NCBI GenBank assembly: GCA_009840355.1
Contig: VXNZ01000026.1
Span: 1 to 36,910 of the forward strand
Direction of reading: 5' to 3'
From: Chloroflexota bacterium
GTDB lineage: Bacteria > Chloroflexota > Dehalococcoidia > Lucifugimonadales > JADFKI01
Length of the DNA stretch: 36,910 nucleotides
Shown here: positions 3,127 to 21,094 of the stretch, one piece after another
Layout: every line of letters begins with the position of its first letter
How positions within the stretch are numbered: position 1 is the stretch's first letter
Program-made: the position numbers and the translations under genes
The notes under the pieces: generated by a model
Database searches by the model: none
What the model saw: the letters and a program-made list of their open reading frames with translations, nothing else
Told to the model about the DNA's origin: nothing

Positions 3127-3606
3127 CTAGTTGATTGTAATCGTGCCAACCATTCCCTGCGCGCTGTGCGGCGTGCAGATTAGCTCGTAGGTGCCTGCTT
3201 CGTCGAATGTGAATGTGAAGTCAATCGTATCGCCGGCTTCGACTTCGACATAAATGTCCAGGTCATCGACCTCGAAGGTGTGGAACTCGGTCTCCGCCGT
3301 CATCGTGAAAGTAACAGTCTCGCCGACGCTGAATGTCATATCGGCGGGGCTGTACGCGTACTCGCCGCTGCCGCCGATGTCCAGCAATCCGACATCAACG
3401 GGCGTTCCGCCACCGCCTGGCTGCCCTGTTCCGTTCTGGCTGCTCGCTACGGCGACCGTAGGCGCGGGCGGAGGTGGCGGCGGCGACATGCGCGGCGCAG
3501 TTGTAGGCGGCGGCGGATCCGGCACGGGCTGCCCGCAGGCAATCACGCCAAGCATCAACACGACGCAAACGCTCGCAAGAACCAACAGATTTCGCTTTTG
3601 CAACAT
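3127..3606 (-). CDS. Cupredoxin (plastocyanin-like) lipoprotein
   Basis: A 159-aa exported blue-copper-type protein. Residues 1-24 are a lipoprotein signal with lipobox GVIAC (Cys24 would be lipidated). Residues 25-70 are a Pro/Thr/Gly-rich spacer, and 80-159 form the cupredoxin domain. All expected type 1 copper ligands are visible: His109 in EFHTFEV, then Cys144, His147 and Met152 in CTPHSAQGM. Such proteins carry electrons at the outer membrane face or hold copper; the partner is not indicated here. The ATG has GGAG nine bases upstream and a second AGGAGG very close to it. It is a single gene with its own terminator at 3033-3070. Confidence 0.88.
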   Translation of the reverse strand: MLQKRNLLVLASVCVVLMLGVIACGQPVPDPPPPTTAPRMSPPPPPPAPTVAVASSQNGTGQPGGGGTPVDVGLLDIGGSGEYAYSPADMTFSVGETVTFTMTAETEFHTFEVDDLDIYVEVEAGDTIDFTFTFDEAGTYELICTPHSAQGMVGTITIN

Positions 3607-3687: not shown

Positions 3688-5079
3688 TCAGTATTTGTAG
3701 AAGTGGTTTTTGATTTCAAACTCGGCGTCTTCGCGCGAGAAAATCGCCCAATTGGCATGCCTTATGGCAAGGTAGGAATTGGCGAGCAACGGTCCCATTG
3801 CGTCCAGCAGAACCGTATCTCGTTCCAACTCTCGGGTGGCGTCTGCCAGCGAAGTGGGTAGTCTGTGGATGTCCCGTCTCGCCAACTCTTCTTCAGTCAA
3901 GCGCGCAGGGTCAACATCAATTCGCTGCGATGTGCTAGGCTGTAGTTCGCGCTTTATGCCGTCTAGTCCTGCCGCAATCAAGCCTCCCAAGGCGATATAC
4001 GGGTTGGAACTGTTGTCGGCTGGGCGAAACTCCAAGTTAGTCGAAGCCATCTCCGCGCCCCAGAAGTTGGATGGTACCCGCAGGGCGGCTTCGCGGTTGT
4101 CCGGCCCGTAGCAGGTGAATGCCGTGCTCCAAGAACCGGGCGAGAGCCTGCGGTAGCTATTCATGCTGGGGCAGGTCAGGGCGACGAGTCCCGGCAGATG
4201 CGCCATTACGCCGCCGATGAAATGATACGCCAACTCGCTGATGTTGTCCGCGTCTTGGGCGTCGTAAAACAGGTTCGTCTTTTCCTCCAAGTCCCAGCCG
4301 CTGAAATGGATGTGGCAGCCGTTGCCCGCTTGCTCTGGAAATGGTTTAGGCGCGAATGATGCGTACATCCCGTGGCGATACGCCACATTCCGCACCGTCT
4401 CCCGATAGATTATATGATTGTCAGCCGCCCTGAGTGCGGGCGCGTGTCGGATGCTCAACTCGTGCTGTCCATGTCCGACTTCGGTGTGATACTGTTCTAT
4501 TCCGATACCTTGTGCTTCCAGCGCCTCGATAATCTCGTCAACGACTTCCTGCGCGAATGTCATGCCGACGCTGGAATTGTCGAGGCTTTCGTCGCAGGGA
4601 ACGAACTTGTCGCCTTCCTTTTCAGTCAAGTACCACTCGGCTTCCATAGCGACTTGAAATCGCAACCCCATAGTCTCCGCTTTTGCGAGCATCCTCTTTA
4701 AGAAATCTCTGGGGCAAGCCTCCCACGGCTCGCGAGACAGGGCTATTAGGTCGCACAACATCAGAGCGCGTTTCGGCGCATAAGGCATGATTGTGAATGT
4801 GTCGGGGTCCGGCATAAGTCTGAACTCGCCCGCGGGTCCCATACCGTCGATGACTTGCAACTGGTCCATATCGCCCATAGCCTGCATCGCGGTGGCAACA
4901 CCGATGCCCGAATCAAGCCTGCTTTCCAAGCCAGAAATGTGGGTGGACTTGCCTCGGATGATGCCGCCGTTGTCGCACCAGAAGAACGATATGAGATGCG
5001 CTCCGGCTTCGCGGGCCTTACGGACGACTTCAGCGCGCTCTATTTCCCTCACGGATTGCCAGAAATCCTTTGAATTCAA
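3688..5079 (-). CDS. Glutamine synthetase family protein
   Basis: 463 aa with the full two-domain glutamine synthetase layout: an N-terminal beta-grasp part (about 20-115) and a C-terminal catalytic domain. Metal- and ATP-site motifs are recognisable but divergent: EAEWY at 146-150 (usually EPEFY), EVGHGQHE at 200-207, GNGCHIHFS at 252-260 (usually GSGMHVHQS), NSYRRL near 308, and the EFRPADNSSNPY block. The adenylylation-site Tyr context of housekeeping GlnA is not seen. These departures fit the gamma-glutamyl-amine ligases (PuuA-like) or other GlnA paralogues better than the ammonia-assimilating enzyme; the amine substrate cannot be read from sequence. The start is TTG: an in-frame stop lies just upstream and no ATG is near. 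A possible extended -10 (TGATAAAGT on the minus strand) lies 20 bp before it. Confidence 0.85.
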   Translation of the reverse strand: MNSKDFWQSVREIERAEVVRKAREAGAHLISFFWCDNGGIIRGKSTHISGLESRLDSGIGVATAMQAMGDMDQLQVIDGMGPAGEFRLMPDPDTFTIMPYAPKRALMLCDLIALSREPWEACPRDFLKRMLAKAETMGLRFQVAMEAEWYLTEKEGDKFVPCDESLDNSSVGMTFAQEVVDEIIEALEAQGIGIEQYHTEVGHGQHELSIRHAPALRAADNHIIYRETVRNVAYRHGMYASFAPKPFPEQAGNGCHIHFSGWDLEEKTNLFYDAQDADNISELAYHFIGGVMAHLPGLVALTCPSMNSYRRLSPGSWSTAFTCYGPDNREAALRVPSNFWGAEMASTNLEFRPADNSSNPYIALGGLIAAGLDGIKRELQPSTSQRIDVDPARLTEEELARRDIHRLPTSLADATRELERDTVLLDAMGPLLANSYLAIRHANWAIFSREDAEFEIKNHFYKY

Positions 5080-14683: not shown

Positions 14684-14713
14684 TTGACACTTTCGTTCTA
14701 TGTGCTGTACACT
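14684..14713 (+). promoter_or_regulatory. lexA promoter
   Basis: TTGACA at 14684-14689 is a consensus -35, and TACACT at 14708-14713 a fair -10, with an 18-bp spacer. Transcription would start near 14720, inside the inverted repeat at 14709-14749 and about 55 nt before the lexA ATG. Confidence 0.65.
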
Positions 14714-14749
14714 GCGAACATGCGTACTTTGGGCGCATGTTCGCAGTGT
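14709..14749 (+). promoter_or_regulatory. 41-bp perfect inverted repeat over the lexA promoter (putative operator)
   Basis: Arms ACACTGCGAACATGCG (14709-14724) and CGCATGTTCGCAGTGT (14734-14749) are perfectly complementary over 16 bp with a 9-bp centre. Each arm holds CGAACATGCG, which resembles a CGAAC half of the Gram-positive type LexA box (CGAAC-N4-GTTCG). The -10 box overlaps the left arm. Autorepression by LexA is the simplest reading. Confidence 0.6.
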
Positions 14750-14774
14750 TTCAGTTCCAGACAAGGAGGGTGCA

Positions 14775-15440
14775 ATGACTACAAACGTAACCGCAAAGCC
14801 GAAGAAAAAGCTGTCCGAGCGCCAAAGCAACATTCTGGCGTTCATCAAGAAGTTCATGGGCGAGAACCAGTTCCCGCCTACCGTGCGCGACATCCAGGCC
14901 GGCTGCCAGATAAGCTCGACGTCGGTCGTGGACTACAACCTGCATATCCTGCAGCGACATGGCTACCTGCGCCGGTTGCCCGAAGTCTCGCGTGGCATCG
15001 AGCTGCTGGGCGAACACGCGGTATCCCGCTCCAACGTGGTCGCGATTCCCATCTACGGCAGCATCGCCGCCGGTGAGCCGCTGCACATCCCGTCCGTGGC
15101 ATCGCGGCACACGGACGAGTTCGAGTCCTACGATGTTCCGCTGTCCATGGTAACAGGCACCGAGGATGCCTACGGTCTGCGCGTCAAGGGCGATTCCATG
15201 ATAGACGCCTTCATCGCAGACGGCGATCTGGTAATCATGCAGCCGGCTGAGACCGCCGCCACCGGCGAAATGGTCGCCGCCGAACTGCGCGACCGCGACG
15301 AAGTTACGCTCAAGCGCTTCTTTCTCGAAGGCAATACCGTCCGCCTGCAGCCGGAAAACGCTTCAATGGATCCCATCCGCGTCCCAGCCGAGAATGTGAA
15401 GGTTCGCGGTCGCGTAATCGGAGTCATTCGTTCATTCTAG
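14775..15440 (+). CDS. lexA: LexA repressor, SOS regulator
   Basis: 221 aa. Residues ~14-75 are a winged-helix DNA-binding domain (LSERQSNILAFIKKFMGE, then PPTVRDIQAGCQISSTSVVDYNLHIL). The C-terminal half is the S24 autoprotease. The scissile Ala99-Gly100 lies in SIAAGEPL, the catalytic Ser141 in KGDSM, and the Lys180 in EVTLKRF. RecA-filament contact triggers self-cleavage and derepression of the SOS genes. ATG 14775 is set by AGGAGG six bases upstream. The recognition helix region differs from the E. coli type, fitting the CGAAC-type operator seen upstream. No other SOS gene adjoins it; the helicase at 25942 shows no such operator that I could find. Confidence 0.93.
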   Translation: MTTNVTAKPKKKLSERQSNILAFIKKFMGENQFPPTVRDIQAGCQISSTSVVDYNLHILQRHGYLRRLPEVSRGIELLGEHAVSRSNVVAIPIYGSIAAGEPLHIPSVASRHTDEFESYDVPLSMVTGTEDAYGLRVKGDSMIDAFIADGDLVIMQPAETAATGEMVAAELRDRDEVTLKRFFLEGNTVRLQPENASMDPIRVPAENVKVRGRVIGVIRSF

Positions 15441-15490
15441 TTTGGCAGTACGGGCTAGTTTGGCAGTACGGGCAGGACGCAAAGGACTAA

Positions 15491-15518
15491 CCTATCCTAA
15501 CTATCCTGTCCATCCTGC
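15491..15518. repeat. ATCCTGTCCATCCTG dispersed repeat, copy A
   Basis: The CTATCCTGTCCATCC phrase just before copA recurs as its complement near 31061-31084, with weaker echoes near 18287 and 30150. It is probably a dispersed intergenic repeat, and its end lies next to the copA -10 box. Confidence 0.4.
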
Positions 15519-15524
15519 TATAAT
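15516..15524 (+). promoter_or_regulatory. Extended -10 promoter of copA, giving a leaderless mRNA
   Basis: TGC-TATAAT is a perfect extended -10 box ending at 15524, only six bases before the copA ATG. Transcription would begin at about the A of the ATG, and no Shine-Dalgarno exists. The -35 region is poor, as is usual with an extended -10. Confidence 0.65.
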
Positions 15525-15530
15525 GTAGGC

Positions 15531-17996
15531 ATGGCTACCGAAACGCGAGAGCGTATCACAGTACCGATAACCGGCATGACATGCGCGGCGTGCGTGATTC
15601 ATGTGTCGCACGCGCTTGAGGAAGTGCCTGCCGTCGCCGATGTCAGCGTTAGTCTGGCGTCCGAGAAGGCGACCATCGCGCTGGAAGACGGCGCAATCAA
15701 GGTGGACGCGCTGCTGGGCGCCGTGGAAGACGCGGGCTACGGCATCGCCACCGACAAGGTCAACTTTTCCGTGGGCGGTATGACTTGCGCCGCATGCGTC
15801 AGCCACGTCGAACACGCGCTGAACGGCGTTGACGGCGTGCTGGACGTGGGCGTCAACCTGGCGACCGAGCGCGCGGCCGTCGAATACATACCCGGTTTGG
15901 CGGCGGTGTCCGACATGCGCCACGCCATCGAGGACGCCGGTTATTCGCTGCTAGGCGTAGTAGGCGAACACGACGATGCCGCTACGCCGCGTGATGTGCT
16001 GATACTTCGACGTAAGCTCGCTGTCGGCATCGTCATCGCCGCCGCGATTATGGCGCTGATGTTCATCCCCGCCGCGCATGGTCTGTTGCCATACAGCATG
16101 GACTACCTGCTGCTTGCGCTCGCCACGCCGGTGCAATTCTGGTGCGGTAGGCAGTTCTACCATGGCGCTTGGGGTGCCCTGAAGCACCGCACCAGCAATA
16201 TGAATACGCTGATTGCGGTAGGCACTTCGGTCGCCTACTTCTACAGCGTCGCCGTAACTTTGCTCGGCGGCACATTTTTCTTCGCTGATGTGTCCACCGC
16301 TACTTTCTTCGACACATCCACGGCAATCATCGCGCTGGTGCTGCTAGGCAAGTACCTCGAAGCGCGCGCAAAGGAACGCGCATCCAGCGCCATTCGCGGG
16401 CTAATGGGGTTGCAGCCTAGCACCGCCAATGTAGTCCGCGACGGCGTCGAAGCGCAGATTGCCATAGACGACCTGCGTGTCGGCGATGTCGTTCTGGTGC
16501 GGCCCGGCGAGCGCATCCCAGTTGACGGTACGCTGCTTGAAGGCAGTTCGTCCGTGGACGAATCCATGCTCACAGGCGAGAGCCTGCCCATCGACAAGGC
16601 AATTGGCGATGAAGTATTCGGCGGCACGGTCAACGCCGTTGGCAGTTTCACCTATCGCGTAATCAAAGTCGGCCGCGACACGATGCTTGCGAGAATCGTG
16701 CGGCTCGTTGAAGAGGCGCAGGGTTCCAAAGCACCGGTGCAGCGTCTCGCCGATACGGTCGCCGCGTATTTTGTGCCTGCCGTGATAATCGTGGCGGCAC
16801 TCACATTCGCATTCTGGTTGCTGTTAGGTCCGCCGCCCAGCTACATTCATGCCACGCTGACTGCGGTCGCGGTGCTGATAATCGCTTGTCCGTGCGCGCT
16901 CGGCTTGGCGACACCGGCGGCGATAATGGTGGGTACGGGCAAAGGCGCGGAATTCGGCATACTAATCCGCAGCGCGGAATCGCTCGAGCGCGCCCACAAG
17001 GTCAGCGCTGTCGCGCTCGACAAGACCGGCACCCTGACACGCGGCACACCGTCTGTCGTCGAAATTGTCAGCGACGAACTTCCCGACGACGAGTTGCTAT
17101 CGCTCGCCGCATCGGTAGAGCGCGGCTCAGAGCATCCGCTTGGCAAGGCGATTGTCGAAGCTGCGAATGAACGCGGCTTGCGCACAAGCACCGTCGAAGA
17201 TTTCCGCGCGTTGCCCGGATTCGGCGTATCCGCCACACTGAACGGCGACGCTGTGCTGCTCGGCAACCTAGCGCTGAGCCTCAACGAAGGTGTGTCTCTG
17301 AAGGTGTACGAATCTCAGTGGGAGGCGATGGCGGGACGGGGCAACACGCCCGTATTCCTCGCGCGCAACGGCGAAGTTGTGGGGCTGATTGCCATCGCGG
17401 ACACGATACGCCCTGAGGCTAAGTCCGCGGTCTCCCAACTCAAACGCGACGGCATCGATGTGGTGATGCTGACCGGCGACAACCCGCACACGGCGAAAGA
17501 AGTCGCGCGGCAAGTCGGCATCGATCGCGTGGTCGCGGAAGTGCTGCCGGGCGACAAGGCGGCGGAAATCAAGGCACTGCAAGATGCCGGACAGGTCGTC
17601 GCGATGGTCGGAGACGGTATCAACGACGCCCCGGCGCTGGCGCAAGCCGACGTAAGCTTCGCCATCGGAGCCGGCACAGATGTTGCCGCCGAGACCGCAG
17701 ACATCACTATCGTTGGCACGGACTTGCATGCCATATCGAAGGCGATTCGCCTCAGCAAGGCGACGATGCGCTCCATCCGGCAGAACCTATTCTGGGCGTT
17801 CGCATACAATGTCGCGCTCATACCCGTCGCGGCTGGCGTGCTATACCCGCTCTTCGCAGGCAGCGGCGTCCCCGACACGCTCGCGCCGGTGCTAGGCGAG
17901 CACGGCTTCCTCAACCCGATACTAGCGGCGGCTGCGATGGCGGTAAGCTCGGTTACGGTGCTCGGCAACTCGTTGCGTCTGCGGCGGTTCAAGTAG
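15531..17996 (+). CDS. copA: Copper-exporting P1B-type ATPase CopA
   Basis: 821 aa, a Cu(I) efflux pump of the inner membrane. Two N-terminal metal-binding (HMA) domains each carry GMTCAAC, with Cys18/Cys21 and Cys86/Cys89. The membrane copper site CPC is at 453-455. The cytoplasmic ATPase part has the TGES actuator loop, the phosphorylated Asp497 in DKTGT, the SEHPLG nucleotide motif, and [10 protein letters not shown] near 694. Eight membrane helices are expected. Length and order are normal for CopA. It is followed 51 bp later by a YHS-domain protein, a common partner of copper ATPases. The promoter sits directly on the start codon, and no CsoR- or CueR-type operator was recognised, so copper control is not visible here. 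Confidence 0.95.
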
Positions 17997-18470: not shown

Positions 18471-18556
18471 GCCGAAGTGGCGGAATGGTAGACGCGACGG
18501 TCTCAAAAACCGTTGGGAGCGATCCCGTGTCGGTTCGACTCCGACCTTCGGCACCA
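18471..18556 (+). tRNA. tRNA-Leu (anticodon CAA)
   Basis: Acceptor arm GCCGAAG (18471-18477) pairs with CTTCGGC (18546-18552), followed by discriminator A and an encoded CCA. The anticodon stem ACGGT/ACCGT closes the loop CTCAAAA, giving CAA. The long variable arm (GGGAGCGATCCC) is typical of class II leucine tRNAs. The T arm is GTCGG-TTCGACT-CCGAC. Confidence 0.97.
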
Positions 18557-19901: not shown

Positions 19902-19976
19902 GGATAGGTTGAGATTTGGCGTATCAATACCGGATGCGCCAATTGAGAATCATCGATTTCAAGGAGCGAAAATAAC

Positions 19977-20642
19977 TTGGAGAACCGAAACAGACTTTGG
20001 ATTATGCTCGGCGGCGGCGCGGTGGCTGTCGTGATCGCGGTCGCCGTTATTGCCGTGGTCGCGCTGAACTTGACCGGCGGCGACAGCAGTGGCGCGCCCA
20101 CCGCCGCCACGGAGTTCCCGGCGCACGCGCACATCCTCGGCGACGCTAACGCGCCCGTTACTGTCGTGGAGTATGGCGATTTCCAATGAGTGCACTGCCG
20201 TGATTTCGCCCTCGGGGCAGGGCGACCGATAAAGGAAAACTATGTTGATTCCGGGCAAGTGCGCTTCGTTTATCGCCACTTCGCGTTCTTGGGGCAGGAG
20301 TCCGTCTGGGCGGCGGAGGCGACCGAGTGCGCCGACGAGCAAGGCCGCTTTTGGGACTACCACGACATCCTGTTCGACAACTGGGCCGGTACAAACATCG
20401 GCGCGTACAACTACAACAACCTCATCGGCTTTGCGCGCATTCTCGAGCTTGATGAGGAGCAGTTCGCAACCTGCCTGAACGAGCGCAGATATGTTGATCG
20501 CGTGCGCTCCGACACGGAGTTTGCGGAGAATAACGGCGTCACATCCACACCGACCGTGTTCGTGAACGGAGAGCGTGTGCGCGGTGTGGACTTCGCGCCG
20601 TTCCGGGACGCCATCGAGGCGGCGCTGGCAGCGACGCAATGA
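19977..20642 (+). CDS. Predicted selenoprotein: membrane-anchored DsbA-like thiol oxidoreductase with in-frame TGA
   Basis: Read through the TGA at 20187-20189, this is a 221-aa DsbA/thioredoxin-fold protein. Residues 7-30 are a membrane anchor, about 40-55 a linker, and 56 onward the domain, beginning ILGDANAPVTVVEYGDFQ. Homologues continue with a CxxC active site; here the first Cys codon is TGA, giving U71-V-H-C74-RDFA. The frame after TGA stays intact for 150 codons and holds the cis-Pro loop GVTSTPTVFVNG. That argues against decay and for selenocysteine, or less likely for a single-base error (TGT or TGC to TGA). A hairpin suited to SECIS follows at 20206. The start is TTG with AAGGAG ten bases upstream. 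The stop overlaps the VKOR start (ATGA), so full-length translation is needed for coupling. Without recoding it would be read as two fragments. Confidence 0.75.
20206..20225 (+). promoter_or_regulatory. Candidate bacterial SECIS hairpin
   Basis: TCGCCCT (20206-20212) pairs with AGGGCGA (20219-20225), a perfect 7-bp stem with the 6-nt loop CGGGGC. The loop begins 23 nt after the in-frame TGA and has G as its second base. Published bacterial SECIS models ask for a loop 16-37 nt after UGA with G in the first two loop positions; both are met. In GC-rich DNA such a hairpin may arise by chance. Confidence 0.45.
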
Positions 20643-21094
20643 CGCTGAGCGCGCGGACAATCTGCTGGTCGGCATCAGTTGCGCTGAGCCTCACTGGGCT
20701 GGCGCTTGCCACATACCTGAGCGTGGTGTATCTGAGCGGCGCGGATTTGGCGTGCGGCGCGAGCGGCGGCTGCGGCGCGGTTACGACCAGCGAATACTCG
20801 CGATTTCTTGGCATTCCCGTGGCAATGTTAGGTGTCGTCGGATATGCCATGCTGCTGCTCGGCAACCTTGCGGCGCTTGGTGTTGCACAGCCTCCGGCAA
20901 TGCTGAGGTGGAGCGTTGCCGGTATCGCGTTCATGGGCTTTGCTTTTTCTGCGTACCTCACTGTGACGCAGGCGTTCCTTATTGGATCGTACTGCATCTA
21001 TTGCCTGACATCCGCGTCCCTGATGACCGTTCTGATGGTGTTGACATTGACGGCGGCGGTGGGGTGGGAGGATTCCGTCTCATTTGGGGATTAG
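20639..21094 (+). CDS. VKOR family protein, disulfide-bond-generating membrane oxidoreductase
   Basis: 151 aa with four or five membrane helices. It carries the complete VKOR residue set: the loop pair Cys39 and Cys45 (ACGASGGCGAV), the conserved Ser51, and the membrane-embedded Cys119-I-Y-Cys122. Bacterial VKOR replaces DsbB. It takes electrons from DsbA-like proteins, passing them to quinone, and so keeps DsbA oxidised. Its ATG overlaps the dsbA-like stop codon by the ATGA arrangement, so the two are coupled and very likely partners at the outer face of the membrane. Confidence 0.92.
   Translation: MTLSARTICWSASVALSLTGLALATYLSVVYLSGADLACGASGGCGAVTTSEYSRFLGIPVAMLGVVGYAMLLLGNLAALGVAQPPAMLRWSVAGIAFMGFAFSAYLTVTQAFLIGSYCIYCLTSASLMTVLMVLTLTAAVGWEDSVSFGD

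Follow-up and report, generated by a model that had tools for sequence, protein, structure and literature searches.

A predicted selenocysteine-containing DsbA-type oxidoreductase encoded beside VKOR in a SAR202-like Chloroflexota genome

The apparent internal stop codon of a DsbA-like gene in a Chloroflexota genome almost certainly encodes selenocysteine (Sec), as judged from comparative sequence evidence. The gene lies in the window, i.e. the whole stretch of 36,910 nucleotides that was analysed, and its features are listed in Table 1. The full reading, in which the UGA at 20187 is Sec and the product is a membrane-anchored Sec-DsbA with a U-V-H-C site that is reoxidised by VKOR, is very probably correct. 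Sec-DsbA proteins as a kind are already known; the pairing with VKOR and a DsbA set that is Sec throughout are the parts worth following.

Table 1. Positions of the Sec-DsbA gene, its neighbour and the associated signals in the window
Feature	Position	Strand	Basis or remark
Probable ribosome-binding site AAGGAG	19961-19966	+	10 nt before TTG; read from sequence
Sec-DsbA/BdbD-type thiol oxidoreductase, 221 aa	19977-20642	+	Translation, Pfam, AlphaFold, Foldseek
In-frame TGA, predicted Sec71, first residue of U-V-H-C	20187-20189	+	Codon counts in 199 homologues
TGC, resolving Cys74 of active site	20196-20198	+	Column C74 invariant
SECIS-type hairpin, 7 bp	20206-20225	+	Comparison of 18 TGA homologues with 117 Cys homologues
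Hairpin 5' stem TCGCCCT	20206-20212	+	Part of SECIS-type hairpin
Hairpin loop CGGGGC, G at second loop position	20213-20218	+	Part of SECIS-type hairpin
Hairpin 3' stem AGGGCGA	20219-20225	+	Part of SECIS-type hairpin
cis-Pro192 of thioredoxin fold, in TSTPT	20550-20552	+	T191-P192 invariant
VKOR gene, 151 aa	20639-21094	+	Pfam VKOR 2.6e-24; ATGA overlap with DsbA stop

The 221-codon frame on the plus strand was predicted to start at TTG 19977 and to end at TGA 20640-20642, its sole internal stop being the TGA at 20187-20189. A leucine-coded start was found in the same place in two homologues (one in genome G001, one on G004:C1). Residue 71 stood in the context YGDFQ-U-VHC-RDFA and was followed by 150 open codons, and the read-through product matched the Pfam families Thioredoxin_4 (2.5e-33) and DSBA (4.4e-11), both matches spanning the TGA. 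A sequence-only reading of the window had described a single TGA exactly at the first Cys of CxxC and an intact continuation over 150 codons with the cis-Pro motif. Reading of the frame and the Pfam matches bore out its coordinates and its description, and the cis-Pro was located as Pro192.

AlphaFold predicted a DsbA fold with confidence (mean pLDDT 90.6) and a putative N-terminal membrane helix at residues 5-33. The best Foldseek match was BdbD of B. subtilis (3eu4; E 4.7e-14, TM 0.83 by target, 28% identity), and the further best solved relatives were Wolbachia DsbA and corynebacterial DsbA. The product showed the characters of the DsbA family, i.e. a thioredoxin fold with a helical insert, a CxxC-type site and the cis-Pro. 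Its likeness to BdbD and corynebacterial DsbA is one of fold; these proteins use Cys, whereas the window protein carries a predicted Sec at the position of the first Cys. The partners also differ, the window protein being paired with VKOR and BdbD with BdbC, which is of the DsbB type.

The VKOR of the overlapping gene kept all four redox Cys, i.e. the loop pair Cys39/Cys45 and the CxxC pair C119-I-Y-C122; no other VKOR was detected in the genome. Among the closer loci, both Sec and Cys, most also had a VKOR gene directly downstream of the DsbA gene. The mycobacterial and cyanobacterial VKOR-DsbA pathways likewise combine a VKOR with two Cys pairs and an adjacent DsbA-like protein; to our knowledge, the known examples are without Sec. 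In the proposed mechanism, the UGA would be decoded as Sec by tRNA-Sec and SelB under the direction of the hairpin, and the product would sit outside the cytoplasm as a membrane-anchored oxidoreductase of the DsbA/BdbD type with a U-V-H-C site. By analogy with the DsbA family, a Sec71-Cys74 selenenylsulfide would oxidise thiols of exported proteins and, by analogy with the VKOR family, the reduced Sec-DsbA would be reoxidised by the neighbouring VKOR, with electrons passing to the quinone pool. General selenium chemistry suggests that Sec would quicken the exchange and guard the residue against irreversible oxidation.

Of the faster thiol oxidase proposed in the sequence-only reading, the oxidase role is supported by the VKOR partner and is suggested by gene order and by what is known of the families, and the gain in speed is a prediction. 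A selenenylsulfide is, however, usually a weaker oxidant than the disulfide of DsbA, so a genuine Sec-DsbA fold might serve a reductase, an isomerase or a peroxide-linked enzyme instead of a VKOR-fed oxidase. Thioredoxin-fold Sec proteins are often reductases, and no VKOR was found next to the YceI-fused or the FrnE-type relative in this genome. We nevertheless consider this rather unlikely, since the window gene overlaps VKOR by ATGA, the pair is kept in Sec as well as Cys loci and BdbD, the nearest structure, is an oxidase.

The codon at residue 71 was determined in 199 non-identical homologous domains from the fetched loci and was TGA in 82, TGC in 80 and TGT in 37 of them, while TAA and TAG did not occur; the in-frame UGA was thus aligned with a functional Cys (82 TGA versus 117 Cys codons). 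The sequence-only reading had proposed to align Cys homologues across this residue and to look for a SECIS after the TGA. The Cys homologues did align, and a conserved SECIS-type hairpin was found. In 18 of the TGA homologues, belonging to five families (f1, represented by two paralogue groups, f25, f29, f48 and f68), TCGCCCT(CGGGnn)AGGGCGA or a near variant began 17 nt after the TGA, with all seven pairs formed in 18/18, whereas none of the 117 Cys homologues checked formed more than 5/7 pairs. The element was a constrained hairpin within about 40 nt after the UGA, with G among the first loop bases. Its codons were frozen at synonymous sites (GCC 18/18, CTC 18/18, GGG 16/16 and GGG 18/18). 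Conserved residues flanking the hairpin mostly had two to four or more codons in use, and elsewhere in the same genes GCC made up 34% of Ala, CTC 28% of Leu and GGG 17% of Gly codons. When six lineage representatives were compared, columns with the same amino acid had an identical codon in 94% of comparisons at codons +6 to +12, versus 42% upstream of the TGA and 46% downstream of the hairpin. One stem pair was compensated on both sides, from C-G to T-A, in f29. The window sequence folded alone had another hairpin as its lowest-energy structure, and the argument for a SECIS is therefore comparative and not drawn from a single fold. The case for the predicted SECIS is carried by the frozen silent codons, as covariation in the 18-sequence group (one pair, one lineage) is weak by itself. 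Homologues of family f60 showed a different hairpin, of the GCGGCTCAGGTTGAGCCGC type and with its register slightly displaced; these homologues were kept out of the pool of window-type hairpins.

Standard gene callers would split the Sec-DsbA gene, as the sequence-only reading had anticipated, and would report the mechanical GTG-start ORF that is present at 20190-20642. Two separate proteins without Sec, i.e. a 70-residue piece and a GTG-started piece produced by reinitiation, would fit such a split, but this seems very unlikely. The GTG piece lacks the first active-site residue and the preceding strand. The residue after the TGA was V, P, S, I, G or H among homologues, and the GTG is therefore not conserved. 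In addition, the freeze of silent sites in a hairpin at SECIS distance would be left unexplained.

Decoding of the TGA as Sec was also consistent with its distribution. When 118 related genomes were searched at the protein level, the same-frame TGA was seen in three further species of the genus, with 73% identity to the window protein in G003, 73% in G001 and 68% in G004, the last with two copies. A paralogue that each of the five genomes of the genus carries had the same TGA, and so had homologues from further families of the order; a class-wide search of 393 genomes yielded many more TGA homologues. The closest named record was the SAR202 cluster MAG MPND01000053 (73% identical). In the region past the TGA, where amino-acid identity was 71-77% and synonymous sites were near saturation, dN/dS was 0.16 against G003 and 0.22 against G001, indicating purifying selection; beyond the SECIS the values were 0.14 (G003) and 0.19 (G001). 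The value for G004 was discarded because its ungapped alignment slips on an indel. The window belongs to a single metagenome-type assembly, as would suit a sequencing error or a recent nonsense mutation, with TGC or TGT as the true codon or with a pseudogene as the result, and a one-base error or mutation had been the alternative named in the sequence-only reading. Such an explanation is hardly credible. A one-off event is excluded because independent genomes of several species and families carry the identical TGA, and both the purifying selection past the TGA and the column free of TAA and TAG argue against it.

The genome (3.28 Mb in 57 contigs, 97.4% complete, 4.3% contaminated) contained a tRNA-Sec with a score of 66.4 bits, above the Rfam cut-off, and a long variable arm, which ARAGORN reported as SeC with anticodon tca. 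SelA, SelB with a C-terminal wing domain, and SelD were encoded in the same genome. SelD (G000:C14:129387-130307; L135) had an in-frame TGA in SCAGUASKFSP and is probably a selenoprotein itself. A near-complete genome without sel genes had been named beforehand as evidence that would speak against Sec. With these genes present, and with the homologues and the hairpin, the earlier proposal that the organism inserts Sec at residue 71 appears strongly supported. SelB was above cut-off in 105/118 relatives, so that its co-occurrence with TGA-DsbA has little power.

The tRNA with anticodon UCA, and the small number of large window ORFs that terminate at TGA, could likewise point to a genome-wide reassignment of UGA to a standard amino acid (Trp or Gly), of the kind known from codes 4 and 25. 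This has very little to commend it, since the UCA tRNA exceeds the tRNA-Sec cut-off and has the long variable arm, glutamine synthetase, UvrD helicase and the Sec-DsbA stop at TGA where their families end, the TGA column alternates with Cys codons only, and SelA, SelB and SelD are present. No internal TGA aligned to Trp or Gly was seen in conserved genes of the genome. That the 238-aa ORF at 19959-20675 on the other strand is the real gene is the least probable reading of all and may be dismissed, as this uninterrupted ATG frame is without a Pfam match, whereas the plus frame matches DsbA families with a dN/dS of about 0.2.

Elsewhere in the window, the minus strand carried a glutamine synthetase gene ending in TGA and then a separate cupredoxin gene in the same frame, the pair lying at 3127-3606 and 3688-5079. 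The TGA at 3688-3690 (minus), with 186 open codons after it, was considered as a second read-through candidate and was rejected, since glutamine synthetase ends there. A LexA gene followed by a gene for a P-type (heavy-metal, HMA-domain) ATPase was located at 14700-17996 (plus strand), and a tRNA-Leu (caa) at 18471-18556.

Family searches of the genome returned two Thioredoxin_4 and three DSBA-family proteins, two of these being the same genes. All three DSBA-family genes detected had TGA at the first Cys position, and the detected DsbA complement is therefore, by prediction, wholly Sec. The second Sec-DsbA (G000:C11, C11:16055; L129:7180-8688) was a frame of 502 aa in which a lipobox-like start and a YceI domain are combined with a Sec-DsbA domain (UPYC) at the C terminus, and was conserved in 5/5 genomes of the genus without an adjoining VKOR. 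The third gene (G000:C33:70626-71114; L205) was of the FrnE type, with an in-frame TGA in GDYAUPWV (UxxV). A partial DsbB match on C43, a 4.7-kb contig, is possibly a fragment or a contaminant. In a SAR202-like Chloroflexota genome of this completeness, the all-Sec detected set was the least expected result; about 2.6% of the genome is missing, and further thiol oxidases may be present. As 3/3 detected DsbA-family proteins are predicted to be Sec, and as the single VKOR detected is paired with one of them, disulfide formation in this bacterium could be selenium-dependent, although we advance this tentatively. Should selenium be needed for the entire DsbA set, secreted-protein folding in the lineage would hang on a trace element.

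DsbA-like UxxC selenoproteins have been described before, and the window gene therefore adds to a known kind. Nine sequences from the Sargasso Sea were termed 'DsbA-like' (PMC1088965), and Global Ocean Sampling gave 'DsbA 1' (pfam01323) with UxxC and a UxxV form termed 'DsbA 3' (PMC2398784), which is of the same type as UPWV of the C33 protein. They were also described from 41 organisms (PMC5029168), and the group is listed in a 2026 review (PMC13188914). The marine-metagenome proteins resemble the window protein in belonging to the DsbA family, in having Sec for the first Cys and a SECIS just downstream, and in their marine-type source; the sequence-only reading had given Sec for Cys as already known in DsbA-like families. 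In the consulted portions of PMC1088965, PMC2398784 and PMC13188914, Chloroflexota are not mentioned for the DsbA-like family, and the VKOR partner, the YceI fusion and an all-Sec DsbA set are not described. A literature search of incomplete coverage found no paper joining SAR202 with selenoproteins and none joining VKOR with DsbA and selenocysteine. The best NCBIfam match was NF041057, the Rcas_1661 family thioredoxin-like (seleno)lipoprotein, with an E-value of 3.1e-41 along the thioredoxin domain; the family is known to include Sec members and is called 'DsbG-like' in PMC13188914. The window protein fell short of the curated cut-off of 190 bits, with 141.6 bits; the C11 paralogue scored 156.7 bits. 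The window protein also has a membrane helix where the family has a lipoprotein start, and it leaves the N-terminal portion of the model unmatched.

The window gene offers a clean case of a DsbA with a predicted Sec whose likely reoxidase is encoded next to it. Sec orthologues and matching Cys orthologues share an operon context in a single bacterial class, so that the reason for keeping Sec, which might be rate or resistance to over-oxidation, is testable by a one-residue swap. A tree of 142 domains with Sec positions masked required at least nine Sec/Cys changes by parsimony, many deep branches being weak; its well-supported branches force three.

Several variants were observed among the relatives. 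A second window-type Sec-DsbA copy in G004 (G004:C5; L133:4912-6171) was fused behind a lipoprotein-like, helix-rich region of 200 residues and was without an adjoining VKOR. FrnE-type homologues with TGA at the first Cys (UPWC/UPFC) were found in other families of the order (L044, L045, L047 and L048). One locus (L160, minus strand, offset 1671; G456:C46) had two active-site TGAs, giving UPVU (UxxU), while its close relatives had UPVC. Tandem four-gene Sec-DsbA arrays of about 3 kb were present in genus g93 of family f60 (L180, L182, L183, L184 and L193), their genes bearing the differing GCGGCTCAGGTTGAGCCGC-type hairpin, and other members of this genus had two or three Sec-DsbA genes in the stretches read.
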